The notes under the pieces: model-generated
The model's database searches: none
What the model was told of the DNA's origin: nothing
The model's input: the letters and a program-made list of their open reading frames with translations, nothing else
DNA from: a virus
Direction: 5' to 3' (one strand)
Length of the DNA: 20,453 nucleotides
Virus record (IMG/VR): IMGVR_UViG_3300006754_000254
Location: 1-20,453 of that record
Shown: piece after piece, positions 1,054-18,774 of the stretch
How positions within the stretch are numbered: the stretch's first letter is position 1
Layout of the letters: each line of letters begins with the position of its first letter
Translations under genes and position numbers: made by a program

Positions 1054-1455
1054 ATGGCAATAACACGGATATCAAGGACTTTTAAAGATATTAGTCTATC
1101 TTTTACTCCGCATCCTGTTACTAAAGATCTACCAATACTTAAGAACGAGAACTCGATTGTTCGTTCAGTTAGGAACTTAGTGCAAACTATTCCTACTGAG
1201 CGATTTTTTAATTCTAACCTAGGTTCTGATGTTACGGATAGTTTATTTGGTTTCGTTGATTATGGTACTGCTTCATTAATAGAGGATCAAATTGTAACTG
1301 TGGTTACGAACTTTGAACCAAGAGTAGAAAATGTAGAAGTAGATGTAGAACCTCAAGTAGATAACAACACTTTTGGTGTTATCGTGCGGTTTGATGTTGT
1401 TGGTCAAGCGTTCCCACCCCAAGAATTTGCCTTCTTGCTAGAAACAACAAGATAA
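1054..1455 (+). CDS. 25: Baseplate wedge subunit gp25 (gp25/TssE-like), 133 aa
   Basis: gp25 is the small wedge protein at the base of the contractile sheath; with gp6 and gp53 it builds the inner baseplate ring, and its family includes type VI secretion TssE. The visible signature is the EPR motif at residues 88-90 (TNFEPRVENVEVDVEPQ), which is conserved in the family. The N-terminus MAITRISRTFKDISLSF and the PTERFFNSNLGSDV segment resemble cyanophage gp25 proteins as I recall them. The length of 133 aa is close to the 132 aa of T4. I chose ATG 1054 over an in-frame TTG at 1045 because MAI(T/S)RISR is the usual family start. Neither start has a clear ribosome binding site. gp6 begins one base after the stop. 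Confidence 0.92.
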   Translation: MAITRISRTFKDISLSFTPHPVTKDLPILKNENSIVRSVRNLVQTIPTERFFNSNLGSDVTDSLFGFVDYGTASLIEDQIVTVVTNFEPRVENVEVDVEPQVDNNTFGVIVRFDVVGQAFPPQEFAFLLETTR

Positions 1456-1456
1456 T

Positions 1457-3346
1457 ATGCCTTTCACTAAATTTACCAATCTTGATTACGATCAAATAAA
1501 GACATCCATTAAGGATTACCTACGTGCAAATTCCACCTTTACGGACTTTGACTTCGAAGGTAGTAACTTCTCTGTCTTAATTGATACTTTAGCATATAAT
1601 ACTTACATAACAGCATTTAACTCTAACATGACGGTGAATGAATCCTTCTTGGATTCTGCTACCCTCAGAGAGAATGTAGTCTCCCTAGCACGTAATATAG
1701 GGTATGTACCACGTTCTAGAGCATGTGCCAAGGCAGAAGTCTCATTTAGTGTTACAATTGCCGATCAGCAGACTTCTACACTAGATCTAGAGGCAGGATT
1801 GGTCTGTGTTGGTAGTGCAAATGACTCAAATTATATATTTTCAATACCTGAGCGTGTTGTAACTACCGTAGACTCAAATAGAAATGCGACTTTTAACAAT
1901 ATTAACATCTATCAGGGAACATTTTTAGAAAAATCCTTCCTTGTAGACGGATCTCTAGACCAAAGGTTCATTTTAGACAACCCTTATATCGATTCTTCGA
2001 CAATTGTAGTAAGAATTCGTGATTCTGTCAATGATGTATCTGAAGGAAGGGAATATCAGGTCGCTGATAACATTTTAAAGATAGATTCTACCTCAGAAAT
2101 GTATCTTTTACAAGAAGTACAGGATGAAAAGTATGAATTACTCTTCGGAGACGGATTCTTTGGTAAAAAATTGGCAACTGGGAACGTTATTGATGTTTCA
2201 TACATTATTACTGACGGAAAAGACGGTAATGGAGCAGCAAATTTCAGTTTCTCAGGAAGATTTAAGGACGACCAAGGAAAAATAGAGGTTCCAACGAACG
2301 CTATTACCATTACTACAAATCAGAATGCCATGAATGGGTCTGATATTGAAAGTGTTGACTCAATTAAGTACTTTGCACCAAGAATTTACTCTTCTCAACA
2401 CCGTGCGGTGACTGCAAGAGACTATGAAGCAATTATTCAGAACATTTATCCTAATACAGAGTCTGTTTCTGTTGTTGGTGGTGAAGAATTGTCTCCTCCA
2501 CAGTTCGGAAACGTTGTAATTAGTATAAAACCGAAGAATGGTGACTATATTTCCGATTTTGATAGGTCTAATATCCTGTCAAAACTAAAACAGTACTCAC
2601 TTTCTGGTATAAATCAGAAAATTATCGATCTTAAGGTGCTTTATGTCGAAATTGACTCATCTGTTTACTATAATACTACTCAAGTAACCAATGTTAATGA
2701 CCTAAAAGCAAGAATTAGCAATACTTTAACGACATATAGAGGTTCTAACATCAATAAATTTGGTGGAAGGTTTAAATATAGTAAAATTTGTCAAATAATT
2801 GACAGTGTTGATGATGCAGTGACCTCAAACATCACTAGAGTCATCATTAGAAGAAATCTTAAGTCCTTAATTGACCAATCTGCACAGTATGAACTGTGTT
2901 TTGGTAATCAATTCCACTACAATAATGAAGGATTTAATATTAAGAGTACTGGGTTTAAAATTGCTGGAAGTAATGAGGTCTATTATTTCACTGATGTCCC
3001 TAAAGGATGTGGCATGGGTACTATTTCTATAGTAAGAGACTCTTCTGAAGATGGAACTTATAAGGTTATTACTAAGTCTGCAGGAACTGTAAATTATACT
3101 AAGGGTGAAATTATTATTAATACTGTTAATATTACATCAACAGTTGAACCAAACAACGTTGTTGAGATACAAGCAATACCAGAATCTAATGATATTGTTG
3201 GATTAACGGATTTATACCTAGATTTTGCCGTTTCCAAGAGTACAATAAATATGATTAAGGACACCATAACATCAGGTGAACAGATATCTGGTATCGGATA
3301 TAAGTCAACTTCCAGCTACTTAAACGGGGAATTAAAGAGGATATAA
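1457..3346 (+). CDS. 6: Baseplate wedge subunit gp6 (baseplate J-like), 629 aa
   Basis: gp6 forms the continuous inner ring of the baseplate and is related to the gpJ family of other contractile tails. The N-terminal part (FDFEGSNFSVLIDTLAYNTY, then NESFLDSATLRENVVSLARN and IGYVPRS at about residues 80-95) is the typical start. The central motif AVTARDYEAIIQNIYPNTES, followed by VSVVGGEE (from about residue 317), matches the AVTxxDY...VxVxGGE signature of gp6/gpJ. The length is close to T4 gp6 (660 aa). It follows gp25 after one base and precedes the giant gene by three bases, so the three are surely co-transcribed. The last ~200 residues are more variable. No truncation or frameshift is seen. 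Confidence 0.92.
   Translation: MPFTKFTNLDYDQIKTSIKDYLRANSTFTDFDFEGSNFSVLIDTLAYNTYITAFNSNMTVNESFLDSATLRENVVSLARNIGYVPRSRACAKAEVSFSVTIADQQTSTLDLEAGLVCVGSANDSNYIFSIPERVVTTVDSNRNATFNNINIYQGTFLEKSFLVDGSLDQRFILDNPYIDSSTIVVRIRDSVNDVSEGREYQVADNILKIDSTSEMYLLQEVQDEKYELLFGDGFFGKKLATGNVIDVSYIITDGKDGNGAANFSFSGRFKDDQGKIEVPTNAITITTNQNAMNGSDIESVDSIKYFAPRIYSSQHRAVTARDYEAIIQNIYPNTESVSVVGGEELSPPQFGNVVISIKPKNGDYISDFDRSNILSKLKQYSLSGINQKIIDLKVLYVEIDSSVYYNTTQVTNVNDLKARISNTLTTYRGSNINKFGGRFKYSKICQIIDSVDDAVTSNITRVIIRRNLKSLIDQSAQYELCFGNQFHYNNEGFNIKSTGFKIAGSNEVYYFTDVPKGCGMGTISIVRDSSEDGTYKVITKSAGTVNYTKGEIIINTVNITSTVEPNNVVEIQAIPESNDIVGLTDLYLDFAVSKSTINMIKDTITSGEQISGIGYKSTSSYLNGELKRI
3336..3340 (+). promoter_or_regulatory. 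Ribosome binding site AGAGG of the giant gene
   Basis: AGAGG lies nine bases before ATG 3350, inside the end of gp6, and supports this start. The gap between the gp6 stop and the ATG is three bases. Confidence 0.5.
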
Positions 3347-3349
3347 AGA

Positions 3350-6300
3350 ATGATACAAACTGGGTTTGAAAAGAGAGTAACTGTTCAGCAGGTAATAGAA
3401 AATCAGCTGCCTGAATTTATACTTTCCGAAAGTCCAAAGACTATTGATTTTCTAAAGCAATATTATCTTTCACAGGAGCATCAAGGTGGTCCTTTAGATA
3501 TTGCTGTTAATCTTGATCAATATCTAAAGGTAGATAACCTCACACCAGAGGTAATTTCTGGTGAGACAACATTATATTCTGATGTTGCAACCTCTGATAC
3601 CACTGTTCATGTATATTCCACTAAGGGATTTCCTAATGAATATGGTTTATTTAAGATTAATAATGAAGTTTTTACATATACTGGATTAACAACTAATACT
3701 TTTACTGGTGTTGTACGTGGATTTAGTGGAATTACTAGTTATAGGACTGATTTAGACGCAGAAGAACTACTTTTTAATGATACTACTGCTGAATCTCACA
3801 CGGCTACTGCAAAAGTACAGAACCTAAGTGCCCTATTTTTAAAAGAATTTTATAGAAAGTTAAAAGTTACTCTTACACCAGGACTTGAAGATGTAGATTT
3901 TCAGACAGATCTTGATGTTAACAACTTTATTAAAGAAGCAAGAAGTCTATATGAGTCAAAAGGTACAAAGGAATCGTTCAGAATCCTCTTTAATGCTCTT
4001 TATGGTGTAGCACCTAATGTTGTTGATCTAGAGCAATACCTACCCAAACCCTCCTCGTCAGAGTTTTTACGTAGAGAACTTCTAGTTGCTGAAAGAATTT
4101 CAGGTAATCCTGCCAAATTAGTAGGACAAACCATTAGAAAATCATCTGATGCTGCTACTCAGGGTGCTGTTTCTGAAGTTGAGGTCTTTACTAGGTCTGG
4201 AATTAGTACATATTATAAGATTGGACTGTTTGTTGGTTATAGTGATAATGCTCTAATTGAAGGAACATTTAAAGTTCAACCAAAAACAAAGGTAATTAAT
4301 CCTGCTGCTACCAATGATGCTATTATTACAGTTGATTCTACCATTGGATTTGGTGCAACTGGTACTTTAATCTCTGGAGATAATGTTATTACATACACTG
4401 ATAAGACTGTTAATCAGTTTTTAGGGTGTGATGGAGTAACTGTTGGTATTGGTACGGCTGCTGAAATAAGAACAGATGAAGTATTTGTAGGATATGAAGA
4501 TGGTGATTTAACTAAAAAGGTAGAAATACGTCTTGGTGGGGTATTATCTGACTTTGAGACCACTAGTGATGTCTTAGATACATCTGAAGAACAGGTTTTA
4601 TATGTTAAGCATGTAGGTGAAAAGATATTAAATCCAGAAACAAATTCTACAAATAAGGAAATATTTGCCAATTCATGGATTTATAATACTAGTAATAGAT
4701 TTGATATTGATGAAATTAATACAGGTTCATCAACAATTACATTAAAAACTGATAATCTTGATAGATCACAACTTAAAGTTGGTGATAAAGTTGATATTTT
4801 ACTATTCAATAGTCAAAATTTAGCATGGACAGGTGCTACTATTGCAAACATTAACAATTCTCTCAGTCAGGTACAGTTAAATGGTCTAAGTGGATTTGCT
4901 TATGATTCTACTCAAACATATACACTTAGAAGAGTATTAGAAACTGCTACTAGTTCTGGTAGTCCTATACATTATGGTAATAATAAGGTTACTTCAGATA
5001 TTACTAATGTTTATAATGATAAAAATGAATTTTTCTATGTTGCTTCAAATTCATTACCTTCTTATGATATAACAAAGTCTACTATTAAGTATACTATTTC
5101 AACTGGAACTGTTGGATCATTATCTGGTTATGATAATGTTACTGAGACATATCAGATAATTTCTTTCTCAGAACCTAGTCTTGATTTTGTTACAGGTGAT
5201 AGAATTTATTATAAAGCAGATGATGGTACTACTCTTAAGGGATTGGAAGAGGGATATTACTTTGTTAAGGTTATTTCTGGTGGTGCAATTAAGATATATG
5301 AGTCAAGAGCATTAATTGAAACTGATGGAATAACAATTGATGGTGATATAGTCAATAATGCATTAGGATTCCTTACAAATGGAACAAATAATCATAGCTT
5401 TATTCTAGCGAATCAAGTTAGTGATACTATTCATCCACAAAGGCTTCTTAAGAAGTTCCCACATGTTCAAGACATTAAGACTGGAAAGGATACAAAAACT
5501 GTTCCTGGTTCTGTTGGAATGCTGGTTAATGGTGTAGAAGTTGTTAGTTATAAGTCATTAGATAAAATTTATTATGGTCCACTTGAAAAAATTACTGTAT
5601 ATAATACTGGAAAAGATTATGATGTAATTGATCCTCCAAATATTACAGTTGCTGCAGGTTTGGGTACAACTGCTCTTGTACGTTCAGTTGTTAGTGGTAG
5701 TGTTAAAGAAGTCCTAGTGGATCCTCAAGACTTTGATGTCGTAGATGTTAAGTCAGTCACTATATCTGGTGGTAACGGCACTGGAGCAGTCCTAGAACCG
5801 ATGGTAGGTGTCAGACAACGTTCAGTTACCTTTGACAGTCGTAATACCGTTGCTGGTGGTGGAGTTAGTTTAGATACAACACAAAGAAGTATTGTTTTCC
5901 AACAGGAACATAATTTTATTAACGGAGAATCTTTAGTTTATCTGAATAATGGTAATACCAGTCTTGGAATAGGTACAACTGGATTTGCTCATGATTCAAT
6001 ATACTATCCAGAAGTTATTAATAATACAACAGCTAGATTTTATCCAAGTTTATCTGCTTTGAATACTGGTCTTATAGCAGCTGCTGTTGAACCAACAGAT
6101 AATGGGCAAGGTTACCATAAGTTTAAAAAAGCAGAATATACCAATACATTAAGAGCAATTAAGGTTCTTGATGGTGGTTCTGGATATACAAATAGAAAGT
6201 TATCTGTAAAACCAGTAGGTGTTCATACTATAAGCAATACTATCAATTTTGATGGTCATGGGTTTAATGATGGTGATCTAGTTAACTATACAACTGACGG

Positions 6301-9300
6301 TACAGTAATTGCTGGATTATCAACAGCAAATCAGTATACAATTATAAAGGAAGATGATGATTCGTTTAAACTTGCTAATGCTGGTGTTGGTGGAACACTA
6401 ACAACAAATTACGAAAGACGTTATTATGAGACATTTAGTGATTCTGGTGTTGGATATCAAAACTTTGCTTACCCTGAGATTACATTAACAGTTAATGCTA
6501 CTATTGCTGGTGTTGGTACTGCTACTCAATCAGTTGGTGTTATTACTGCAACTCCTATTATTAGGGGTGAAATGGTTAGTGCATATCTTTACGAAAAAGG
6601 AACTGGATATGGTTCATCAATCATAAACTTTAATAAGAGTCCAATAGTTACTATAAAAACTGGTAAGAATGCTGAATTTTTACCAATTATTGTTAATGGT
6701 AAGATTGATCAGGTAAAGGTAACTTATTCTGGTCTTGAATATACTTCTGCTCCAGATTTAACATTTGTTGGTATTGGTTCTGGTATTGGTGCTAAAGCAA
6801 GAGCAATTGTAGAAAATGGAAAAGTAACTGATGTTGTTGTTATCAATCCAGGTACTGGTTATGATAGCAATACTGGAATTGCAGTAACATCTATTGGATT
6901 AAATGCTTATATTGAAGCAGATATTAGAGAGTTATCGGTAAACCAGCATAGTAGATTTGGTGATGAAATATTAGTTGAAAATACAGATGGGTTGGAATAT
7001 GGATATGTTGGTCATTCAACTGCAATTGGTAGTGTTTCTCTTGGAGACAAATTAGATAAGCACTCACCTATTATTGGATGGGCATATGATGGTAATCCAA
7101 TTTATGGTCCAAATGGTTATTCTGATGTTGAAGATAGTAACTCTTCTATTAAGTATATTAATACTGGATATAGATTAGCACCTACAGATGTTGTAGATAG
7201 ACCTCCTGCCAAGATAGATGGTAACCCATTTGCTCAAGGGTTCTTTATCGAAGATTATAAATTTGATAATTCTGGAGATTTAGATGTACATAATGGAAGA
7301 TATGGTAAGACACCAGAATTTCCAAATGGAACATATGCATATTTTGCTGGAATAGCAACTGCAACTAGAGCAGCTAAATTCCCATATTATATTGGTGATT
7401 CTTATAGGTCAAATGTAGTTGATCAACTTGTAGACCAAAGTTTTGACTTTAATACATCAGATTTGGTTAGAAATACACTTCCATATAAAGCAGAAGATTT
7501 AAATGCAGGTAATGATTTCATTTCAGAACCATATGAAACTTTACAGCAAAGAACAATTGTTGATTCGATAAGTAAGGGTTCTGTTGATGCATTTGTTGTT
7601 AATCAGGCTGGTGATGGATATGCTGTAGATGATATTGTTGTATTTGATAATGATGGGACAAATGGTGGTGGATTAAATGCTTATGTATCTGAAGTAAAAG
7701 GTAAAGAAATTTCAAGGATTGACACTGAGGTTCAAACATATGCAGATATTCAAACAACATTAGTATGGGACACTTCAAGTCAAGTTTCTGTACATATTTC
7801 ACCGACACATGCATTAAACAATGGTGATACTGTTGTTATTTCTGGAGTATCGACACATATTAAGGGATTATCAAAATCACATATTATTGGTGTTAGTTCT
7901 TTAAGTTCATCTTTAGTTTCAGATGTTCCTGCTAATCCTGCTGTTGGAGATGTAGATGATATCTATGTTTCAACGATTCCAACTAATGTATCTGTTGGTT
8001 CTACAGTTGCTATTGGTGTAACGGATCAAGAAATTGTTGAAGTTCTTAATATATTTGATACAGAGAATGTTTTACGTGTACATAGAGGTCAAACTGGTTC
8101 TGTACATACAACATCATCTCCCGTAGAGAAAATATCTGATTCATTTACTATACCAATAGTTACTGACTACTTTAGTTCTACATTAAACGATAAAGTATAC
8201 TTTAACCCACTACAAGCAGTTGGTATGGGAGTAACTACTGGTGGTGATGCAACTAGAAGTTATACAATTGGTGATACTCAAGAATCAATATCTATTCCGT
8301 ATCAGAGCATTTATGTACCTAATCATCCATTCAAACAAAATCAAGAAGTAACCTTTAGTAGAGGTACTGGTGCTGTTATTGGTGTAAGTAAAGGTCCAGC
8401 AACTGGTGTTATTAACTTACCTTCTAGTGGTACTACTCAAACCATGTATGTTATCAATAAAGGTAAAGACTTTATTGGACTTACTACTGCTGTAGGATTT
8501 AACACAAATGGATTCTATTTTAGAAGTTTTGGTAGTAATGAAACTGGAAATGGAGATGCTAGAGATTGGAAGTATTCTTTAGAGACTAATTTAACACAAC
8601 AAATTGCTAAAATTGAAAAGATAACAAGTACTGTTTCAGTATCTACTGCTCATCAGTTATCTAATGGTGATCCTATCAGATTATCATTAAGATCTAATCA
8701 ATCTGTTGGTATTGGTACGTCCACTGCTGTAAGACTTAAGTATAACTCTGATAATGATAAGTTAATTATCAATCCAACAACATTTACTGGTTCTTCGATA
8801 ATAGCAGGAAATGAATTTAGTATAACTGCACATGAATTTAAAACTGGTGATAAAGTATTCTATAATGGTACTGCTACTGGATTATCTACTGGATCATACT
8901 ATGTTTATAGGTTAGATGATGATAAGTTCCAATTGGGACAAACAAATAAGGATGTAACAACAAATCCACCAACTGTTCTTAGTATAACTGCAGGTAGTGG
9001 AGGTTCTGGACAAGAATTATCTAAAGTTAATCCTAGAATTGAAGCAATAAGAAATAACCATTTAGTATTTGATACTTCTGATAGTACTTTAGTTGATTAT
9101 ACTGTTAGAATCTATCATGACGAAGACTTTAAGAATGAATTAGTTTCTGTTGGTGGTACTATAACAGATTTCACTATTGATAGAGGTATTACTCCATCTG
9201 GTAGTGCTGGTGCAGCAGTAACAGTAGGGTATTCAGAGACTTTACCTTCTAAGTTATACTACACAATAGAAAAGGGTGGATATATCAGTACATCTGATAC

Positions 9301-12300
9301 AGAAGTTTCTAATAATTCAGAAATATTATTTACACCTAGTGTCTATAATAATTCTTATAGTGTTGCTGGAGTAGGTACAACTACTTTCCAGGTATCTCTA
9401 AAATCAATTCCAGAGTCCCTTACATACAATCAGACTACATCTAGTCAATTAGTATACTCTACGTCTTCTGAAAATGCTAGGGGTGGTGTAGAGTCCTTAA
9501 GAGTGACATCTGGTGGACTTAATTATAAGAAGTTACCTAAATTTAAATCTATTACATCTATTGATGGTGCTAATGCTGATATAATTCCACATTCTTCAAC
9601 TATTGGTAGAATCAAGGAAGTTACTATTCAAGATCCAGGGTTTGATTATTCTGCAGATGCAACATTGCGTCCAGAAGTCTTTATATCTCCAAATATCACT
9701 GTAGTTGATAGAAATTATGTTATTTCCGTTGATGTTACTTCTGGTGGATCTGGATACTCATATGCGCCAGAATTGGTAGTTATTGATCCAGGTACTGGTT
9801 TACCATTCGATGAAGGTAAGTTGGAGGCAGAACTTCAGGGTTCTTCAATATCTAAAGTTAATGTTTTACAGTCACCAAGAGGGTTAGCAGACACAATCAA
9901 TAAAGTTTATGCTGTTAATAATACTAATGGTGTTAGTGTAGAGAAGATTGAGTCTACAGGAATCGGTACAGCAATATTCACACTAGTAACTCCAATTAGT
10001 AATTTCAGTACTGCTCCATTTGCTGTAGGTGATAAAATATTTATTGAGGGTATTGATACTTTAGGTATTGGTAATACTGTTGGATCTGGATATAATTCTC
10101 CTGATAATTCATATAAGTTCTTTACTGTTAGTGCATATGATAATGCTAACCCAGTTAAAGTTACAGTAGACCTTTCTGAAGTAACAGCATATGCTGGTGT
10201 TGCTGTAACTGCTGTTAATGGGTATGGAATCTTAGTTAATCAGAATACTTATCCAACATTTAAAGTTAATCAAGAACCATTAGACTTTATTCTTGATGAG
10301 CAAGTTGCTGTTCTTAAAGGCGGCATATATGTATTACAAGATCTTTATATTAGTTTAAGTCTTAATGACCAAATTAAAGTTAGGGGTACTTACGATTTAG
10401 TTAATGGTGATCAGATTCGTGGAAGATTCTCTGGTACAATTGCCCTTATTAAAACTCTTGTAGGTAATAGCGCAAGATTTAAGGTAGATTATTCATTAAG
10501 GCAAGATAAGGGATGGACTGATGATATTGGTAAACTAAATGAAGATTATCAGGTTCTTCCTGACAATGATTATTATCAGAATTTATCATATACTGTCAAG
10601 AGTCCTATCATGTGGGAGGATTTGCAGAATCCTGTAAATAGACTTTTACATACGACTGGATTAAGAAATTTTGCTGATGCTGGAATAACTACTGCAACAT
10701 CAATTAAAAGTGGAACACCTGCAGATTCTGGTAGTGTTGCATTGATTGATATTATTAACGAAAAGAGAGTTGATACTGTAAGTAATTTTGACTTTGGAAT
10801 TGATTTAGATGCTACTACAAATAAGTCTAGGTACATTAAGTTCCAAACTAAGAGGTTATCTGATTATATTGATTGTACTTCAAATCGTGTTCTTTCAATA
10901 GATGATATTGGACCATTCTTCAATAAGACCTTCCCTGCACCAAATTTATTTACTAATCTTGATACGATAACTTCTGGTGCTGGATATAATCGTTACTTAG
11001 TACAAGCAACTAATATTGGTAATGATGAAAGATCAGTAACTGAGGTTATAACACTTACTAACAAAACTGGTGATATCTTCACCTTTGAAAAGGCATCTGT
11101 AGGAATAGCATCAACTGCTTCAAATAATTCTTATAAAGTTACAAAATTAGCAGATATTATTGGAAATAGTGAAACTGAGAAGTTGGTATTTGACCCAGTA
11201 AATCCATATGATAATGATTATGATATTAAGATTATAAAAAATACTTTTAATACTAAAATTGCAGGTACTGGTAGTACTAGTCTTGGAATTGTTGATATAA
11301 CAGGCAGTAACACTAATGTTGGTGTAGGAACTGAAGTTACATTATTCTCTGCTACTGCAAATCAGAATGATGGGTTCTTTGCAAATGTTGAAGTTATAAA
11401 CGATTTAACAGATGAGATAACATACGTTGAGATGTATGTTGATCAAGATGGAACTAATACATATATCTCTGATTTCTATTTTGATAATGATCAGGGTGTT
11501 AATGGAAACTTCATTGGTACATTTGGGGCATCAATTTCTGGTGGTCTTGTTAATATCAACTTTACTAATAGTACTGAAATAAATGATGTTCTTGTTAGGT
11601 CTAGGGTAGTTGGTTTTGGACTTACTACTGCTGGTATTGGAACATATCGTTTCTTAACTTCTGGTCAGCAACCTGGAACAGAGAAAACTGCAAGATATGA
11701 GAGTAAGTATGTATATACCGATGAACCTCCAGTAGGAGTTACGACAATATTCAGAACACCTAAAGCAGATGTAACTAGTTTCAAATCAATTATTAAGGTT
11801 GGTTATGGAAATACTTCAGCATTACATCAGTTATTGGCAGTTCATAATGGTGGAGATTCTTATATTACACAATTCCCATATCAATCACTTGGAGGTACAA
11901 GTGGAATAGGAACATTTGGTACAGGATATAAAGGTTCTGATATTGAATTGTATTTCTATCCAGATTCTGGTATTAATAGTCAAATTTTAACAAAATCTTA
12001 TACCGAATTAATTCAAACTGAGAAAGATATTCAAAATACACCAAGTGATCATTTATATGGAACTATAAGTGAAAATATTATAACTACTCAATTTGATGCA
12101 ACAAATGGTGGTAGGGTTAATAGAACCCAGTTTGGTCTTAACTATAATGGAACTCCAATCTTTACTAAGACATTCAACCCTGCAGATACCACTCAAGTAA
12201 CTTTGGGATCTGGAACATTTAGTCTTAAAAATCACTTCTTCCAAACTGGAGAGCAGTTGGTTTATACAGCAGCAGATACTTTTGGTACTACTCCTGATGC

Positions 12301-15300
12301 AATGGAGATGTCTAACAGTAGTAATTTACCAGCGACTGTATATGCAATTAAAGTTACTGATGATGAATTTAGAGTATCTGCAACATCTGGTGGTGCAGCA
12401 ATTACATTCAATAATGCTGGTGCTGGTAATGCTCATACATTGACCATGGCTAAGAGAGCAGAGAAGACTGTTCTTTCTTTAGATGGTATTGTACAGAATC
12501 CAGTAACATATACTCCAGTTAGTTATACTTTAACTGATAATTTCGGTTCTATAAGTGCTACAGATACATTTGCATCTTTATCTGGAATTTCTTCAATCCT
12601 ACCTGGAGATATTCTTAAGATTGGTAATGAATTTGCTAAAGTTGCAACGGTTGGATTAGGAACTACTGCTGTTGGACCTATAACTGAAACAGGAACACAC
12701 AATCTTGTTGAACTTGAGAGAGGATATGTTGGAACAACAGCAGCAGCACATAATGATGCGGCAGTAGCAAGAATTTATCTTGGTTCATATAATATTGTTG
12801 ATAGTGATATTCATTTCACTGAAGCACCAACTGGAAATAATATAACATCAATAGATCCTGATACTTTACTTAATACTGCAAGGTCTACATTTGGTGGTAG
12901 AGTTTATTTGAGACAGGATTATACGAAGAATCAGATATATGACAATATTTCAAAATCATTTACTGGAATTGGAGCAACTTATCAATTAACAGTTGCTGGT
13001 GCTGGTAATTCTTCAACTGAACAAGGAAGTGGAATTGTTTTAATTAACAACATGTTCCAAACTCCAACTACAACTAATAACTTAGGAAATACTTGGTCAT
13101 TAACGAATAATGGAGTTGGTTCAACTATAACATTCAGTGGTATAACTGATGATAATGGAGATCTTGTAATATCTGATTATGATGTTAATAAGAATCAATT
13201 ACCAAGAGGAGGAATGATTGTTTCTCTTGGTTCTAGTCTAGGATCTGGATATGCTCCACCAGTAGGTGCTAAAGATATAGACGTAGTAATTAATGGTAGT
13301 GGTGCTCTTACTAAAGTTGGTATAGGATCAACTACTCAACATGGTTCTGGGTATCGTGGTGTTGTTAATGTTCAAGTAATTGATGAGGTTTATGAACATA
13401 GATGGGTAACAGCAGCAAATAATGCTGTTAATGGTAATTTAACACCTACAGATGGTACATATGATTCATCTACTGGATTATTGGCATTAACAATTCCTGG
13501 ACACGGTTTAGGTGCTAGTGGAAATGTTACTTTTGCTAATAACTCTATATCAATGACTTGTGCTAGAGATAATCATGCTTCTACCAAGACATATCCTCGT
13601 GCTGGAATTGACCCTGCTGGTGGTGGAGCAAATAGAGCATATACTAGAGTAGATAGTGATAATATTTCAGTTAATATTGGACAAGCTGGTGGTGGTGCTA
13701 ATGCAGTTGTGGCAGCAACAGTTGGTGCTGGTGGAACTCTTGCTTTCTCTGTTTCTACTGCTGGTAGTGGATATAAGAGTCCTAGAATTCTTGCTCCATC
13801 ACCATCCTATGAATCATTAGGAATAGTTGGTGTATCAAGACTTGGTATTGGTATGACAACTGATACAGGAACAGGTTTATTACTTGACTTAAATGTTGGT
13901 CCTGCAAGTGCTATACCACAGAATAACAAGTATGGTGATGCTTCTGACTTAATTGATGCTAATAACGCATTCCTTTCAGAACTTGCTGCTAAGAGGATGT
14001 ATGATAGATGGAACAATGGTTCTAACTCATCGTATAGTTATCCTGGTGGATTTACTGAGCAAGATTGTATTGATGATGTTGTAGATGTTCTAGAAGCAAC
14101 ATCACATAACCTTAAGTATGGTGGTAATGATAAGACTTATGATGCTGCAAATCTCTTTGTAACAGGTGTTTATTCCAACCCTGCACCAGTTGCAGGTGAA
14201 GAAGAGCAAGTAATTTATGCCCTACATGAAGCCAGAGATATGGCAACTAGAGCATTAAGGAATCAAACCATTTATACACATCTAGGAGCACAATATGCTC
14301 ATACGTATAGTAGTGGTACAGTAACAAATGCAGTTTGTTCTGGTGGTAATTATGCTCATACATACGTCGCAGCAGATTCTTCTGCTAATGCAATTAATGG
14401 TTCATTAAAACCAACTGCTGCTGTTTATGATGCAGTAGCAGGAACTTTGGCATTAACATTTGGTAGTGCTCATGGTATTGCTAATGGTGCAAATGTAACT
14501 ATTGCAAATCATTCATTAGTATTCACTTGTGCTAGGGATGGTCATATGACCAAACATGCATATCCAAGAACAAGTGATCCTGCTTCGGGTACTAACTTAT
14601 CTGCTACTGTAACTAGTACAACAGCATTAACAGTAACTGTTGGTACATCACCATTAGTATTCAAGAGTGTTGTTGCTGGTGCTGGTGCCGAAGCAACTTC
14701 ATATGACGCAAAGACTGGTGATTTAGTGCTTAATGTTGGTTCTAATCATGGACTCTTAGCACCAACAACCTTAACTGCTCCTTCAACAGCAGCTTATGCT
14801 CCATCGACAGGAAATCTTACATTAACAATTAATGCTCACGGATTATCAAATGGTGATTATGTGAAACTTGATGATGGGTTTGTAACATTCACATGTGCTA
14901 GAGATAATCATACTACTCAACATTCATATCCATTATCAAGATCATCTGTAAGTGATACTTGGTTGCCTGTTACTAATGTAACCACAAATACTTTTAAGGT
15001 TAATGTTGGTAAGTCTCCTGATACATCTGCACATACATTTGTATCTGCTACTGCTGGCGTTAAGAAGGCAAATGCTGGTATTGGTATTGGAACCAGTAAA
15101 TTAGGGTTCAAGTGTACTAGAGACGCTAATGCTGCTAATCCACAGGGTGTTGCACAACAATTATACCCACGTCCAGGCGATCCATTCTCTTGGAACAAGA
15201 AACAAATATCAATTGCCTCTACAAGTACATCTTCAGTTACTGTTAATGTTGGTGTATCATCTACATCTCATACTAATTTACAACAGACATTTGATAATAC

Positions 15301-17158
15301 AATTACTGTTGATAGTGCAGATCCTAAGTGTGCAACAGTTGCTTCTTCCGTTAATACTCTTGTTGGAATAGTAACTGGTGTTATTAAGACTCATAGTGCT
15401 TCTCAATTACCTACAAGGACTATAAGTTCCTTTGAGACATATCAAGTTAATGACTTTAAGATATCAAGATCTGGTTATGGATTTAAGAAAGGTGATGTAT
15501 TTGAACCAGTTGGACTTGTTACTGATGCTGCATTAACAACACCTAGTAAAGATTTCTCTCTTACTGTTTTAGAAACATTTACTGATAACTTTGCTGCTTG
15601 GACATTTGGTGAGTTGGATTATATTGATAGTATAAAAGATTTACAGAATGGAAAGAGAGTTAGATTCCCATTACAATACAATGGTGACTTACTAAGTTTT
15701 GAGACTTCTAATTCTGAGATTGATTTAAATTCAGTTTTAATTATCTTTGTAGATGGTGTTTTACAGCATCCAGGTAAACACTATACATTTGATGGAGGTA
15801 CATCATTCGTATTTTCTGCACCACCAGAAGCAGATTCTAGTATTTCTGTATTCTTCTATAGAGGAACTCGTGGTGTTGACAGTGCTTATGTTAATATCAA
15901 TGAGAGTGTAAAAGTTGGTGATATCATACAACTTAAGACAACGGGTGCTATTAAGGGACAAGATGAGAGAACAATCTCTGGTATTTCTAGTTCTGATAAA
16001 GTTCAAACCAATCTTTATACTGGATTGAATATTAATGAAGTTGATTATAGATTACTAGATTGGAGTAAGCAAAAGGTTGATAAGAATATTGAAGGTGAAA
16101 ATATCTACAAATCAAGAGATTCTATTGAAGGATTAGTTTATCCAACTGCTAGAATTATTGGTGATCTACCATCATCTGGAATTTCTTCCATATATGTTGA
16201 TGATGCACACTTCTTCAATTATGAAGAAAATGAATCTAGTATTAGCATTATTAGTTGTGGTGGTTTAATTATGCAGAATACTGATCCAGTAGCTGCAGCA
16301 GTGACAGCAACAGTTTCTGCTGCTGGAACTATAAGCGCATTAACAATTGTTGATGGTGGTTCTGGATATATTGGTTCTGCTGTTACAGTATCAATCGCTA
16401 GACCTGTAGGTTCTGCTGTTACCTTTATTGGTGGAGTTGGTGTTTATACTGGAATAGCAACTGCAACTATACCTGTTGTAAATGGTTCTTTATCTGGAAC
16501 AGCAAATATAACAAGTATTGGTGTGGGATATACTCATTCAACATCTCCAAATGTACTTGCACCTATTGAGGTTGTTCCATTAGATGAAACTATTAATACT
16601 ATTAACGTTGTGAAGGGATTCTCTGGTATCATTACTGGTATTAGTACATCACATAATGGTAGTGAGTGTTATATTGAATTCAATATCAATAAAGGTGATA
16701 GTGGTCAAAATATTACTAATCACTTGAAACCTGGTTATCCAATTTATGTAACTGGAACTCATGTAGGACATGGTGTTACTTCAATCGATAGATTTGAAGA
16801 GGCTTCTATTATTAGTATTGGAACAACCTTTATAGATAATGTTTACGTAGTAAAACACTACAATCGTTTTGATGATAATACTGGTATTATCACATGTAGA
16901 ATTAAAACTGGTTCTAATGTTGCTGGAATAGCAACATCAATAACTTTAAATTCTACTGTTGCTGGTATTAATACTGATGGTTATGATTTAGGAAGGTTCT
17001 CTTGGGGTGTACTAGAATACACTGATACTAGAACAACTGGAGTTGGAATTGCCGTTACAGGTAACATTCTTGCCTCTGGAATAAGCACATTCCCAACGAT
17101 TCAGAGGAGAGGATTTGGAATAAGATCCAATGGTGCTCTTAGAAAGGATCTTGGGTAG
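3350..17158 (+). CDS. Giant modular baseplate/tail protein in the gp7 slot, 4,602 aa, with YHYH-like domain
   Basis: One uninterrupted frame fills the interval between gp6 and gp8, where T4 has gene 7 (1,032 aa), so a role as wedge scaffold plus peripheral tail structure is inferred. The N-terminus (about residues 1-265) is least repetitive and contains ESPKTIDFLKQYYLSQEHQG and YESKGTKESFRILFNALYGV, then a YLPKPSSSEFLRRE segment; such segments recur in large phage baseplate proteins. The body is beta-rich and made of recurring modules: GxGY loops, H-x-x-x-x-GD units, three RGxxGT units, a YHYH-like domain (about 1240-1345), and a helical domain (about 3530-3643) followed by CARDxH units and a helical remnant near 3987-4013. 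Another motif, VDGVLQHPGKHYTFDGG, lies at about 4137. The C-terminus ends RRGFGIRSNGALRKDLG, which I recall as conserved in cyanophage homologues. There is no signal peptide or membrane segment. The estimated mass is near 0.5 MDa. Equivalence to gp7 rests on position, not on seen similarity. Confidence 0.85.
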   Translation: MIQTGFEKRVTVQQVIENQLPEFILSESPKTIDFLKQYYLSQEHQGGPLDIAVNLDQYLKVDNLTPEVISGETTLYSDVATSDTTVHVYSTKGFPNEYGLFKINNEVFTYTGLTTNTFTGVVRGFSGITSYRTDLDAEELLFNDTTAESHTATAKVQNLSALFLKEFYRKLKVTLTPGLEDVDFQTDLDVNNFIKEARSLYESKGTKESFRILFNALYGVAPNVVDLEQYLPKPSSSEFLRRELLVAERISGNPAKLVGQTIRKSSDAATQGAVSEVEVFTRSGISTYYKIGLFVGYSDNALIEGTFKVQPKTKVINPAATNDAIITVDSTIGFGATGTLISGDNVITYTDKTVNQFLGCDGVTVGIGTAAEIRTDEVFVGYEDGDLTKKVEIRLGGVLSDFETTSDVLDTSEEQVLYVKHVGEKILNPETNSTNKEIFANSWIYNTSNRFDIDEINTGSSTITLKTDNLDRSQLKVGDKVDILLFNSQNLAWTGATIANINNSLSQVQLNGLSGFAYDSTQTYTLRRVLETATSSGSPIHYGNNKVTSDITNVYNDKNEFFYVASNSLPSYDITKSTIKYTISTGTVGSLSGYDNVTETYQIISFSEPSLDFVTGDRIYYKADDGTTLKGLEEGYYFVKVISGGAIKIYESRALIETDGITIDGDIVNNALGFLTNGTNNHSFILANQVSDTIHPQRLLKKFPHVQDIKTGKDTKTVPGSVGMLVNGVEVVSYKSLDKIYYGPLEKITVYNTGKDYDVIDPPNITVAAGLGTTALVRSVVSGSVKEVLVDPQDFDVVDVKSVTISGGNGTGAVLEPMVGVRQRSVTFDSRNTVAGGGVSLDTTQRSIVFQQEHNFINGESLVYLNNGNTSLGIGTTGFAHDSIYYPEVINNTTARFYPSLSALNTGLIAAAVEPTDNGQGYHKFKKAEYTNTLRAIKVLDGGSGYTNRKLSVKPVGVHTISNTINFDGHGFNDGDLVNYTTDGTVIAGLSTANQYTIIKEDDDSFKLANAGVGGTLTTNYERRYYETFSDSGVGYQNFAYPEITLTVNATIAGVGTATQSVGVITATPIIRGEMVSAYLYEKGTGYGSSIINFNKSPIVTIKTGKNAEFLPIIVNGKIDQVKVTYSGLEYTSAPDLTFVGIGSGIGAKARAIVENGKVTDVVVINPGTGYDSNTGIAVTSIGLNAYIEADIRELSVNQHSRFGDEILVENTDGLEYGYVGHSTAIGSVSLGDKLDKHSPIIGWAYDGNPIYGPNGYSDVEDSNSSIKYINTGYRLAPTDVVDRPPAKIDGNPFAQGFFIEDYKFDNSGDLDVHNGRYGKTPEFPNGTYAYFAGIATATRAAKFPYYIGDSYRSNVVDQLVDQSFDFNTSDLVRNTLPYKAEDLNAGNDFISEPYETLQQRTIVDSISKGSVDAFVVNQAGDGYAVDDIVVFDNDGTNGGGLNAYVSEVKGKEISRIDTEVQTYADIQTTLVWDTSSQVSVHISPTHALNNGDTVVISGVSTHIKGLSKSHIIGVSSLSSSLVSDVPANPAVGDVDDIYVSTIPTNVSVGSTVAIGVTDQEIVEVLNIFDTENVLRVHRGQTGSVHTTSSPVEKISDSFTIPIVTDYFSSTLNDKVYFNPLQAVGMGVTTGGDATRSYTIGDTQESISIPYQSIYVPNHPFKQNQEVTFSRGTGAVIGVSKGPATGVINLPSSGTTQTMYVINKGKDFIGLTTAVGFNTNGFYFRSFGSNETGNGDARDWKYSLETNLTQQIAKIEKITSTVSVSTAHQLSNGDPIRLSLRSNQSVGIGTSTAVRLKYNSDNDKLIINPTTFTGSSIIAGNEFSITAHEFKTGDKVFYNGTATGLSTGSYYVYRLDDDKFQLGQTNKDVTTNPPTVLSITAGSGGSGQELSKVNPRIEAIRNNHLVFDTSDSTLVDYTVRIYHDEDFKNELVSVGGTITDFTIDRGITPSGSAGAAVTVGYSETLPSKLYYTIEKGGYISTSDTEVSNNSEILFTPSVYNNSYSVAGVGTTTFQVSLKSIPESLTYNQTTSSQLVYSTSSENARGGVESLRVTSGGLNYKKLPKFKSITSIDGANADIIPHSSTIGRIKEVTIQDPGFDYSADATLRPEVFISPNITVVDRNYVISVDVTSGGSGYSYAPELVVIDPGTGLPFDEGKLEAELQGSSISKVNVLQSPRGLADTINKVYAVNNTNGVSVEKIESTGIGTAIFTLVTPISNFSTAPFAVGDKIFIEGIDTLGIGNTVGSGYNSPDNSYKFFTVSAYDNANPVKVTVDLSEVTAYAGVAVTAVNGYGILVNQNTYPTFKVNQEPLDFILDEQVAVLKGGIYVLQDLYISLSLNDQIKVRGTYDLVNGDQIRGRFSGTIALIKTLVGNSARFKVDYSLRQDKGWTDDIGKLNEDYQVLPDNDYYQNLSYTVKSPIMWEDLQNPVNRLLHTTGLRNFADAGITTATSIKSGTPADSGSVALIDIINEKRVDTVSNFDFGIDLDATTNKSRYIKFQTKRLSDYIDCTSNRVLSIDDIGPFFNKTFPAPNLFTNLDTITSGAGYNRYLVQATNIGNDERSVTEVITLTNKTGDIFTFEKASVGIASTASNNSYKVTKLADIIGNSETEKLVFDPVNPYDNDYDIKIIKNTFNTKIAGTGSTSLGIVDITGSNTNVGVGTEVTLFSATANQNDGFFANVEVINDLTDEITYVEMYVDQDGTNTYISDFYFDNDQGVNGNFIGTFGASISGGLVNINFTNSTEINDVLVRSRVVGFGLTTAGIGTYRFLTSGQQPGTEKTARYESKYVYTDEPPVGVTTIFRTPKADVTSFKSIIKVGYGNTSALHQLLAVHNGGDSYITQFPYQSLGGTSGIGTFGTGYKGSDIELYFYPDSGINSQILTKSYTELIQTEKDIQNTPSDHLYGTISENIITTQFDATNGGRVNRTQFGLNYNGTPIFTKTFNPADTTQVTLGSGTFSLKNHFFQTGEQLVYTAADTFGTTPDAMEMSNSSNLPATVYAIKVTDDEFRVSATSGGAAITFNNAGAGNAHTLTMAKRAEKTVLSLDGIVQNPVTYTPVSYTLTDNFGSISATDTFASLSGISSILPGDILKIGNEFAKVATVGLGTTAVGPITETGTHNLVELERGYVGTTAAAHNDAAVARIYLGSYNIVDSDIHFTEAPTGNNITSIDPDTLLNTARSTFGGRVYLRQDYTKNQIYDNISKSFTGIGATYQLTVAGAGNSSTEQGSGIVLINNMFQTPTTTNNLGNTWSLTNNGVGSTITFSGITDDNGDLVISDYDVNKNQLPRGGMIVSLGSSLGSGYAPPVGAKDIDVVINGSGALTKVGIGSTTQHGSGYRGVVNVQVIDEVYEHRWVTAANNAVNGNLTPTDGTYDSSTGLLALTIPGHGLGASGNVTFANNSISMTCARDNHASTKTYPRAGIDPAGGGANRAYTRVDSDNISVNIGQAGGGANAVVAATVGAGGTLAFSVSTAGSGYKSPRILAPSPSYESLGIVGVSRLGIGMTTDTGTGLLLDLNVGPASAIPQNNKYGDASDLIDANNAFLSELAAKRMYDRWNNGSNSSYSYPGGFTEQDCIDDVVDVLEATSHNLKYGGNDKTYDAANLFVTGVYSNPAPVAGEEEQVIYALHEARDMATRALRNQTIYTHLGAQYAHTYSSGTVTNAVCSGGNYAHTYVAADSSANAINGSLKPTAAVYDAVAGTLALTFGSAHGIANGANVTIANHSLVFTCARDGHMTKHAYPRTSDPASGTNLSATVTSTTALTVTVGTSPLVFKSVVAGAGAEATSYDAKTGDLVLNVGSNHGLLAPTTLTAPSTAAYAPSTGNLTLTINAHGLSNGDYVKLDDGFVTFTCARDNHTTQHSYPLSRSSVSDTWLPVTNVTTNTFKVNVGKSPDTSAHTFVSATAGVKKANAGIGIGTSKLGFKCTRDANAANPQGVAQQLYPRPGDPFSWNKKQISIASTSTSSVTVNVGVSSTSHTNLQQTFDNTITVDSADPKCATVASSVNTLVGIVTGVIKTHSASQLPTRTISSFETYQVNDFKISRSGYGFKKGDVFEPVGLVTDAALTTPSKDFSLTVLETFTDNFAAWTFGELDYIDSIKDLQNGKRVRFPLQYNGDLLSFETSNSEIDLNSVLIIFVDGVLQHPGKHYTFDGGTSFVFSAPPEADSSISVFFYRGTRGVDSAYVNINESVKVGDIIQLKTTGAIKGQDERTISGISSSDKVQTNLYTGLNINEVDYRLLDWSKQKVDKNIEGENIYKSRDSIEGLVYPTARIIGDLPSSGISSIYVDDAHFFNYEENESSISIISCGGLIMQNTDPVAAAVTATVSAAGTISALTIVDGGSGYIGSAVTVSIARPVGSAVTFIGGVGVYTGIATATIPVVNGSLSGTANITSIGVGYTHSTSPNVLAPIEVVPLDETINTINVVKGFSGIITGISTSHNGSECYIEFNINKGDSGQNITNHLKPGYPIYVTGTHVGHGVTSIDRFEEASIISIGTTFIDNVYVVKHYNRFDDNTGIITCRIKTGSNVAGIATSITLNSTVAGINTDGYDLGRFSWGVLEYTDTRTTGVGIAVTGNILASGISTFPTIQRRGFGIRSNGALRKDLG
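3568..3760 (+). repeat. RGxxGT module, copy 1 (giant protein residues ~73-136)
   Basis: The module reads as a beta hairpin, FKINNEVFTYTG, then VVRGFSGITSYRTD. Its pattern, I-x-x-E-x-h...V-x-RG-x-x-G, recurs near 7957-8136 and 12559-12780. Copy 1 has lost the late His. Confidence 0.5.
6168..6188 (+). repeat. 21-base perfect direct repeat, copy 1
   Basis: This 21-base stretch encodes the DGGSGY loop (residues 941-946) and is identical to bases 16350-16370. The first flanking base differs on each side. It shows that the protein repeat is retained at DNA level in at least one pair and could support recombination within the gene. Confidence 0.7.
7040..7420 (+). other. YHYH-like domain within the giant protein
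   Basis: The segment GWAYDGNPIYGPNGYSD (W1244) is the hallmark of the YHYH domain family. About 75 residues later comes NGTYAYFAGI with YAYF at 1329-1332, where the family's naming tetrapeptide YHYH would be expected, then FPYYIGDSYRS. The two His of the canonical tetrapeptide are thus replaced by Ala and Phe. The domain occurs in many marine phage and bacterial surface proteins; its biochemical function is not established to my knowledge. Confidence 0.7.
7957..8136 (+). repeat. RGxxGT module, copy 2 (giant protein residues ~1537-1596)
   Basis: Visible as VSVGSTVAIGVTDQEIVEV followed by LRVHRGQTGSVHTTSSPVEK. It aligns by eye with copies 1 and 3 through the acidic residue in the first strand and the RG-x-x-G turn. 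A His follows two residues later, at SVH. Confidence 0.55.
12559..12780 (+). repeat. RGxxGT module, copy 3 (giant protein residues ~3070-3144)
   Basis: Visible as LPGDILKIGNEFAKVATVG followed by LVELERGYVGTTAAAHNDAA. This copy shows the fullest form of the unit, including the Gly-Thr and the late His. It follows a DGIVQNPVTYTPVSY segment that resembles the later VDGVLQHPGKHYTF segment, so the two motifs may form a larger repeated block. Confidence 0.55.
13401..15260 (+). repeat. CARDxH repeat region of the giant protein (four units, one degenerate)
   Basis: Units carry a YDxxTGxLxLTxxxHGL strand pair, then (S/T)hxFTCARDxHxTxxxYPR, then a SxTxxxVxVGxSP strand pair. The cysteines are C3404, C3727, C3849 and C3922 (bases 13559, 14528, 14894 and 15113). 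Units 1-3 keep C-A-R-D-x-H. Unit 4 reads CTRDANAANPQ and has lost the His but keeps YPRPGDP. A partial unit (SYDAKTGDLVLNVGSNHGLL, H3800) precedes unit 3, showing an incomplete duplication. A helical domain lies between units 1 and 2. I recall similar repeats in marine cyanophage proteins; their function is unknown to me. Confidence 0.7.
13938..14280 (+). other. Helical domain within the giant protein, interrupted by CARDxH units
   Basis: Residues about 3530-3643 are unlike the surrounding beta-rich sequence. Examples are DLIDANNAFLSELAAKRMYD, CIDDVVDVLEATSHNLKYGG and VIYALHEARDMATRALRN. They are rich in Ala, Leu and charged residues with helical spacing. A matching helix, DPKCATVASSVNTLVGIVTG, appears at about 3990-4011, after the last CARDxH unit. 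The simplest reading is one helical bundle into which beta units were inserted. Confidence 0.5.
16350..16370 (+). repeat. 21-base perfect direct repeat, copy 2
   Basis: Identical to bases 6168-6188 and likewise encoding the DGGSGY loop (residues 4335-4340), about 10.2 kb downstream in the same reading frame of the giant gene. Confidence 0.7.
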
Positions 17159-17184: not shown

Positions 17185-18774
17185 ATGTCTGCAATTGTAA
17201 CAGATCAATTTAGAATATTGAATGCGGGTAATTTCGTTGACTCCGTTACAGATACTTCTAATTCATACTATGTCTTTGTAGGATTATCAAATCCTACTTC
17301 ATCAGGGTATGGTAAGGACGCTGCTTGGGACACAGCAACTCCTAGTCCCACCGACAACTTTGACTATCATGGTTTTGTTGGTGATAATATGTCTTTTGGT
17401 AAGAAGGTTACTTCTGCTAACGTAAGAAGGTTAGCAAGAAAGACTAGTTGGGCAAGAGGTACAAAATATGAAATGTATCGTCATGATTATAGTTTAACGA
17501 ACCTATCCCCGATTACAGGTTCATCTAGACTATATGATGCAAATTATTATGTAATTAATAATGACTATAAGGTTTATGTCTGCATTGATAACGGTTCTTC
17601 TGGTATTTCTACCACTGGTAATGCATCATTGAATGAACCAACTTTCACTGATTTAGAACCATCTAAGGCAGGTGATGGTGTTGATGGGTATACTTGGAAA
17701 TATCTGTTTACTGTTAGTCCAAACGATATTATTAAATTTGATTCTACTGATTATATTTCATTACCTGCTGATTGGGCAACTTCAAATGATGCTCAGGTAT
17801 CATCTGTAAGGAATAATGGTGACTCTGCTATTAATGAAAACCAGATTAAACAAGTCTATATCTCAGATAGAGGGCAAGGATATTCTGCTGGATCTTGGGA
17901 ATTAAATATTCTAGGTGATGGTGAAGGTGCAAAATGTGTTGTAGATGTCAATTCAAGTGGTAATATAACAAATGCAGTAGTTTCTGCTGGTGGTAAAGAT
18001 TATAGTTTTGGTGTTGTTGATTTGGGTCCAATTAGACCTGTTGGTGTAGGAACTGCTAATGCTAAGTTAATTCCTATTATACCTCCTGCAAGAGGGCATG
18101 GTAGTGATATTTACTCCGAACTAGGTGCTGATAAGGTATTAGTTTATGCTAGATTTGATGATTCAACAAGAGATTTCCCAACGGATACAAAGTTTGGACA
18201 GATAGGAATAGTTAAGAATCCTACTACAATAGGTACATCAAGTTCTATCTTTACTCAAAATCAGTTTTCGTCATTAGGTGCATTTAAGTTCTCGTCAGTG
18301 TCTGGTGAGTCAACAACAGTACCAGGTATAGGTGCTAGTATCACTCAAGTAACAACAGACGGAACTGCGAAGGGTTACATATCCTCGTATGATAGGGAAA
18401 CAAAAGTCCTTAAATATACACAAGATAGAACATTGTTCATGAATCCTAGTACTTATGATACAACAGACCATTCTGCTGTTACTAATACTGGAAATGTACT
18501 AAGTTTCTTCACTGCGGATCCTTCAGCATCAGCTTCTGTTAATAATATTTTGAGTTCTGATGGATTTACTGGAGCAATAGATCGTAATTTCACTGGAATT
18601 AATACTAATCCATCTGGAAACAAACTTATTTCACTTGGACTTGAGTTTACAAATGGCATTGCGAATCCTGAGATAAATAAAGGCTCAGGGGACATTATTT
18701 ACATTGATAACCGTCCTGAAATCTCACGAAATTCTCGACAAAAAGAAGACGTTAAAATCATCCTGGAATTCTAA
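17185..18774 (+). CDS. 8: Baseplate wedge subunit gp8, enlarged marine form, 529 aa
   Basis: gp8 is a wedge protein that in T4 (334 aa) dimerises and contacts gp6, gp7 and gp10. The N-terminus MSAIVTDQFRILNAGNFVDS and the segments SYYVFVGLSNPTSSGYG, ANVRRLARKTSWARGTKYEM, SRLYDANYYVIN and DGYTWKYLFTVSPNDIIKFD resemble cyanophage gp8 as I recall it. It is almost 200 residues longer than the T4 protein. Part of the extra length is a GxGY-type unit (DRGQGYSAGSWELNILGDGE from about residue 229, then SAGGKDYSFG), the same kind of repeat that fills the giant neighbour. It is preceded by its own late promoter. The region before the ATG has only a weak AGG, about 14 bases upstream. The C-terminus ends RQKEDVKIILEF, six bases before the next ATG. 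Confidence 0.9.
   Translation: MSAIVTDQFRILNAGNFVDSVTDTSNSYYVFVGLSNPTSSGYGKDAAWDTATPSPTDNFDYHGFVGDNMSFGKKVTSANVRRLARKTSWARGTKYEMYRHDYSLTNLSPITGSSRLYDANYYVINNDYKVYVCIDNGSSGISTTGNASLNEPTFTDLEPSKAGDGVDGYTWKYLFTVSPNDIIKFDSTDYISLPADWATSNDAQVSSVRNNGDSAINENQIKQVYISDRGQGYSAGSWELNILGDGEGAKCVVDVNSSGNITNAVVSAGGKDYSFGVVDLGPIRPVGVGTANAKLIPIIPPARGHGSDIYSELGADKVLVYARFDDSTRDFPTDTKFGQIGIVKNPTTIGTSSSIFTQNQFSSLGAFKFSSVSGESTTVPGIGASITQVTTDGTAKGYISSYDRETKVLKYTQDRTLFMNPSTYDTTDHSAVTNTGNVLSFFTADPSASASVNNILSSDGFTGAIDRNFTGINTNPSGNKLISLGLEFTNGIANPEINKGSGDIIYIDNRPEISRNSRQKEDVKIILEF

Follow-up and report, generated by a model that had tools for sequence, protein, structure and literature searches.

In bacteriophage T4, gp7 (1032 aa; PDB 5IV5 and 5HX2) is a monomer found in six copies per tail (PMC3004832). 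A minimal orthologue, gp17 of phage XM1 (242 residues; PDB 7KH1), uses an N-terminal helix-turn-helix to bundle with two gp6-orthologue chains in the core, and its internal loop and C-terminal segment face the periphery and hold twelve tail spikes, the spikes being a separate gene product (PMC10457771). For the marine T4-like phages, the literature is in conflict. T4 gp7 was stated to be absent from pelagi- and cyanomyophages, with VrlC in its place (PMC7029224). Nevertheless, the P-SSM2 protein in the gp7 slot (YP_214343.1, 5195 aa; phrog_2885) is already annotated as gp7, in a record that makes no mention of a split core, and the 7312-aa slot protein of P-SSM4 is already named gp7. CsCl-purified S-SZBM1 virions gave 71 peptides of a 6619-aa "baseplate wedge initiator," S-SZBM1_208 (PMC9146016), equal in length to the ORF in the S-SZBM1 slot, and in S-CREM2, 91 peptides were reported for a 1937-aa protein encoded between the gp6- and gp8-position genes (PMC10665884), for which homology is by position only. 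The first-pass annotation of the DNA studied here was right that large ORFs in the gp7 slot of T4-like cyanophages are already known (phrog_2885, P-SSM2, P-SSM4, and others). Absence of the protein from virions, which would have counted against a gp7 role, is contradicted by a homologue found in them (PMC9146016, PMC10665884).

The window analyzed here is a whole virus record of 20,453 bases. It contains an uninterrupted frame (3350..17158, + strand) that starts with ATG, has no internal stop, and encodes a 4602-aa protein with a calculated mass of 491.4 kDa, referred to below as the giant; the observation of this ORF is confirmed. The gene order is gp25-gp6-giant-gp8, followed by a DUF4815/VrlC-type gene. 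Upstream lie the gp25-like gene (1045-1455; PF04965, E 1.6e-12) and a gp6-like baseplate wedge protein (1457..3346, + strand; PF21379, E 9.5e-18; phrog_219, E 1.7e-198), which is presumed to be the partner of the gp7 core. Downstream lie a gp8-like baseplate wedge protein (17185..18774, + strand; PF09215, E 6.8e-11; phrog_438, E 6e-149) and a DUF4815/VrlC-type structural protein cut by the contig end (18781..20451, + strand; PF16075, E 6e-32; phrog_358). The placement of the giant between gp6 and gp8, as first proposed from the reading frames, was borne out by these flanks and, as described below, by profile homology to gp7. The TTG listed as the start of the gp25-like gene is questionable, since an ATG in the same frame (MAITRIS), three codons on, looks more natural, and a partial gene at the left edge (1-489) resembles phrog_1574, with a weak match to the glycosyltransferase family phrog_34859 (E 4e-6).

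Since the DNA similarity of the whole protein to known phages is minimal, all comparison was made at the protein level. The family phrog_2885, "baseplate wedge subunit," matches residues 2-3417 of 4602 (3523 bits, E 0), and 461 phage records, nearly all cyanophages, match the N-terminus of the giant. The P-SSM2 protein shares the slot and near full-length collinearity, with an N-terminus 56% identical, whereas it is 593 residues longer and differs in the appendage and the variable stretch described below. S-SZBM1_208 likewise shares the slot, both core pieces, and the YHYH domain motif, but its first insertion is ~500 residues longer and its motif distance is 2,837.

A profile built from 92 sequences of residues 1-450 links the giant to gp7. 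When searched against all PDB chain sequences (hmmsearch), it gave two matches up to E 10, both of them gp7 (T4 and a KP1-type phage; E 8e-5 to ~9e-5), and against the whole T4 genome, gene 7 was the single match (E 3.9e-7). Aligned with the T4-family gp7 profile (hhalign), it scored E 7.9e-11 over 89 columns that cover the KG helix and the following strands (T4 726-813). In the reverse search through eight complete cyanophage genomes, the T4-family profile hit the giant in six of them and had no other match there. Where a separate gp7 homologue was sought with gp7 profiles in complete isolate genomes, no full-length match lay outside the giant gene. Searched directly against the window, the T4-family profile found nothing at E <= 1, so the link needs either the profile of the giant's own family or a compact bridge. 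The Pfam family PF23786 (Baseplate_wedge) scored 22.8 bits at the KG motif within residues 1-317, under its curated cut-off of 27 bits, and the end of its profile matches the YYQ region in several relatives. Because PF23786 had no match in T4 itself, it could not be used as a bridge, and a protein of an Ochrobactrum phage served instead.

The predicted fold points the same way. An AlphaFold2 model of residues 1-450 (mean pLDDT 73.5) consists mostly of strands after residue 240, and among its PDB matches KP1 gp7 ranks first (E 2.3e-4) and T4 gp7 third (E 2.1e-3). For a 449-aa compact relative (pLDDT 58.6), KP1 and T4 gp7 make up the top three PDB matches (probability 1.00, E 3.6e-8 to 3.9e-6, ~290 columns). 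Baseplate chains of phages 7-7-1 and XM1 come next, with far weaker E values; TM-scores were low since whole chains of very different length were compared. We place moderate confidence in both models. The data searched contained no solved structure for any of the giants.

The family features of gp7 that are present in the giant are the gene position between gp6 and gp8, the first core part (T4 726-813) and the last part (T4 ~861-905) in order, and the core fold as predicted. The T4-type N-terminal region that precedes the core is lacking, the giant being without a match to T4 gp7 1-640 in the sliding scan; the compact relatives likewise begin with the core, and the 1-640 region is no feature of the wider family. 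Taken together, these profile and fold comparisons make the giant almost certainly a genuine homologue of T4 gp7. Judged by sequence, gp7 is present in these marine phages and is the giant protein.

The gp7-like sequence of the giant lies in separate pieces. The first, core piece 1a (residues 9-66; 3374..3547, + strand), comprises N-terminal helices (12-58 in the model) and aligns with residues 4-61 of the gp7 of Ochrobactrum phage vB_OspM_OC (OC; E 4.7e-6); by analogy with XM1 gp17, it may be the helix-turn-helix of the core bundle. It is followed by a gap relative to OC gp7, small insertion 1 (residues 67-155; 3548..3814, + strand), a beta module that is repeated at residues ~311-375 (self-match E 2e-4). 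Core piece 1b (residues ~156-295; 3815..4234, + strand) contains helices with the KG motif (YESKGT, 201-206) and beta strands, and carries the hhalign match at E 7.9e-11 and the PDB match at E 8e-5. Core piece 2 (residues ~2384-2475; 10499..10774, + strand), with the motif YYQNLSY...HTTG, corresponds to the C-terminal part of the gp7 core and aligns with OC gp7 179-285 (hhalign E 3.7e-14) and with the T4 family (E 2.4e-4). In T4, the sequence YYVMKIKS...RFVHPVGF stands 126 residues after the KG helix; in the giant, YYQNLSYTVKS...RLLHTTGL is found at residue 2408, 2,207 residues after the KG motif.

The link of core piece 2 to T4 was examined both directly and through the compact bridge. A profile of the YYQ region built from 24 sequences found gene 7, from residue ~865, as its single match in the whole T4 genome (E 0.003), and aligned with the T4-family gp7 profile at E 2.4e-4 over 34 columns; none of 200 column-shuffled controls did as well (best control 0.036). 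In a larger search of PDB sequences, this profile found no gp7, and the direct link, which is short (34 columns), is therefore rated modest. The compact bridge is the 631-aa OC gp7, which matches the T4-family gp7 over 232 columns (E 5.6e-10), the N-terminus of the giant (E 4.8e-16), and its YYQ region (E 3.7e-14); through it, the sequence link of core piece 2 becomes strong. In OC, phiOC_p051, which occupies the gp6 position, and phiOC_p050, the gene after it, both carry the annotation "T4-like gp7" (L343:2422-4305); by position, phiOC_p051 should be gp6.

We also ran sliding windows of the whole giant (77 segments) against gp7, as the first-pass annotation had suggested. Only two match clusters appeared, at residues ~9-295 and ~2384-2475, ordered as in the compact protein; all segments outside them were at background, with no gp7 match in insertion 2 or the appendage. 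These comparisons show that residues 9-66 and ~156-295 represent the first part of the gp7 core and ~2384-2475 the last. The earlier view that the N-terminal ~265 residues are the conserved part was right yet incomplete, as a further conserved core piece stands at ~2384-2475. The homologous core in T4 gp7 spans residues ~655-905. T4 gp7 has ~640 residues before the core, which is uninterrupted on this scale and shares its order with the giant, whereas the giant begins with the core, has it split by ~2,050 residues, and carries ~2,130 residues after it. That the gp7 core has been split by ~2,050 added residues is, in our judgment, very likely. Both core pieces, with their order kept, also occur in OC gp7 (631 aa) and in metagenomic relatives (~400-1,030 aa), which are compact, with the insertion small or absent. 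Searches of the open literature turned up no account of a split core, though an earlier one may exist in subscription papers. The initial impression of a largely uncharacterized architecture applies to the split core and not to the family, which is already annotated.

The distance between the two motifs varies widely among relatives. Between the KG and YYQ motifs, we count 126 residues in T4, 145 in OC, 571 in HTVC008M, 1635 in S-H9-2, 1664 in S-B68, 2194 in S-SRM01, 2207 in the window, 2208 in ACG-2014f, 2278 in P-SSM2, 2837 in S-SZBM1, and 2857 in P-SSM4; distances between 144 and ~590 are represented by metagenomic relatives ~400-1,030 residues long. When 41 compact and middle-sized members are aligned, the inserted residues cluster behind positions 197-201 of the 449-aa member, where they average about 258 in all, and are far fewer elsewhere. 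These alignments show that the distance between the core parts grows in a graded series and that most of the added residues enter at one point of the core. In P-SSM4 and S-SZBM1, insertion 1 reaches ~500-600 residues, which indicates that a second core position also takes insertions. This growth, by about 500 residues, is seen at L084:7129-18381 (P-SSM4) and L090:8728-18033 (S-SZBM1). The beta module of residues 67-155 (window 3548-3814) recurs in other structural genes of the same phages, for example at 145153-145317 in S-SZBM1 and in the VrlC-type gene of S-SRM01 (117610-117825). The tail after the YYQ motif ranges from 56 residues in S-B68 and 243 in HTVC008M to 2194 in the window and 3755 in P-SSM4 (1,395-3,755 in the giants other than S-B68). 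With other slot proteins of 1915 (S-B68), 3224 (S-H9-2), 3895 (S-SRM01), 4067 (Bellamy), 4225 (ACG-2014f), 4878 (Sf-CH5), 5195 (P-SSM2), 6619 (S-SZBM1), and 7312 aa (P-SSM4), the 4602 aa of the giant are mid-range. The P-SSM4 gene that follows the 7312-aa gp7 carries the annotation gp9 instead of gp8 (L339:21969-23198).

The added residues form two large regions. Insertion 2 (residues ~296-2380; 4235..10489, + strand) is modular, without recognizable similarity to T4 gp7 in the sliding scan; it is probably beta-rich, with small repeated modules, and inserted residues concentrate at the matching point of the 41-member alignment. The C-terminal appendage (residues 2476-4602, ~2,130 residues; 10775..17155, + strand) likewise has no gp7 match in that scan. 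Within the appendage lies a variable stretch (residues ~3346-4030; 13385..15439, + strand), delimited by a break in collinearity with relatives, which is lost at ~3345-3522 and regained at ~4031, and marked by module copies and phrog_1276. A C[AT]RD module occurs there in four copies, at 3404, 3727, 3849, and 3922, and P-SSM4 and S-SZBM1 match the stretch several times, so proteins may differ in length partly through how many copies of this module they have. The first description of everything beyond the N-terminus as modular and beta-rich holds in kind, given the repeated module types and a model, ending at residue 450, that is mostly strands after 240.

We propose, with a probability of roughly three in four, that the giant is the orthologue of T4 gp7, the baseplate wedge scaffold, which has kept a ~260-residue core and grown very large regions from fixed positions. 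Both core pieces would fold together and join two gp6 chains as a (gp6)2-gp7 heterotrimer. One copy of the giant would be present per wedge and six per tail, adding ~2.9 MDa; of the six or twelve copies envisaged at first, six is the expected number, because T4 gp7 is monomeric and each tail has six (PMC3004832). The ~2,050-residue insertion and the ~2,130-residue appendage would then probably project as two peripheral arms. In 532 comparisons with T4 gp7 1-640, gp6, and gp8-gp12, the arms gave no significant match, so their role is drawn from analogy. The giant is likened to XM1 gp17 by wedge role, and the two differ in that gp17 is minimal and its spikes come from a separate gene. As the loop and C-terminal segment of the XM1 protein are spike attachment sites (PMC10457771), the arms would most likely enlarge the rim of the baseplate, where they would carry the parts to which fibres attach or take their place, and pass host contact on to the wedge. 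Direct host contact by the arms is conceivable on the same analogy, at a little under even odds. More tentatively, one core loop could be an open insertion site that let the protein lengthen step by step, from ~400 residues to more than 7,000, the core pieces still meeting in space, so that a covalent multi-megadalton rim in cyanophages would replace the separate gp9-gp12 type parts of T4.

The alternative that survives best accepts the gp7-like pieces and takes the arms to be mainly rigid scaffold, with no part in host contact. The beta modules occur as repeats and are also seen in other structural genes, and different phages are collinear over the first ~3,300 residues, as a part that binds receptors usually would not be. 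Residues 3346-4030, the variable stretch, by contrast resemble a part under changing selection, and the loops of the XM1 gp7 orthologue hold spikes (PMC10457771). We regard the scaffold role as a serious minority possibility.

Much less probable is that the giant is a polyprotein cut during assembly, its core pieces and arms being separate chains in the virion. Its extreme length invites the idea, and the published masses were calculated from the ORF and hence give no measure of intactness; yet the relatives of 400-1,030 residues hold both core pieces in one continuous chain, and we know of no cleavage site or protease for this step.

A YHYH domain (PF14240; residues 1216-1335; 6995..7354, + strand; E 7.8e-24, 85.1 bits against a cut-off of 25) lies in insertion 2, and its motif is found in 9 of 10 compared giants, always between the two core pieces. 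It raises the prospect that an arm is an enzyme, for example a polysaccharide depolymerase, acting through this or an unrecognized domain. The name-giving motif, however, reads YAYF in the window, none of 219 surveyed segments contains YHYH, and the histidine pair is absent, which suggests that any histidine-based binding has been lost; moreover, Pfam identified no catalytic domain. The sequence of the region had no match among solved structures. We consider an enzymatic arm slightly less probable still than a cleaved polyprotein.

The published position, that marine T4-like phages lack gp7 and have VrlC/DUF4815 in its place, would make the giant an unrelated structural protein located by chance between gp6 and gp8. 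It was stated for pelagi- and cyanomyophages (PMC7029224), and a VrlC/DUF4815-type gene does lie nearby in several of these phages. Against it stands the profile match between the giant and T4 gp7, reciprocal in six of eight complete genomes and found nowhere else in them. HTVC008M, the reference pelagimyophage of that study, itself has a 1016-aa slot protein with the YYQ core motif at 773, and a DUF4815 search of T4 gave no match. With the giant matching gp7 and DUF4815 matching nothing in T4, we reject VrlC as the gp7 substitute and regard this reading as very improbable.

Finally, misassembly of what is a metagenomic fragment is ruled out as the source of the long ORF, with next to no probability left to it, because isolates and many independent contigs share the layout and are collinear with the giant. 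The contigs follow it up to ~3,600 residues, where the fetched DNA ends, and alignments with isolate proteins extend from its first residues to its last; the giant is not a chimera, since its C-terminus, to residue ~4,600, aligns with the ends of isolate proteins. In one contig (L039:6730-14755), the giant frame is broken at residue 2675 and resumes shortly after, probably through a frameshift or sequencing error.

That this giant family is annotated and that members occur in virions was known; its gp7 identity by sequence and the split-core architecture, of which the open literature searched gave no account, are what this analysis adds. At the level of sequence, the conflict in the literature is settled: gp7 in the marine T4-like phages appears to be present, split and enlarged, not missing. 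A ~490-kDa protein that had gone unexplained is now mapped as a ~260-residue anchor at known coordinates with two putative arms at known attachment points, which makes structural work and the design of mutants direct. The graded series, from 126 to 2,857 residues between the motifs, would be a natural record of how a machine part grows by insertion with its place kept, and it suggests that one structural protein can expand from about 400 residues to more than 7,000 and still occupy the same position in the baseplate.
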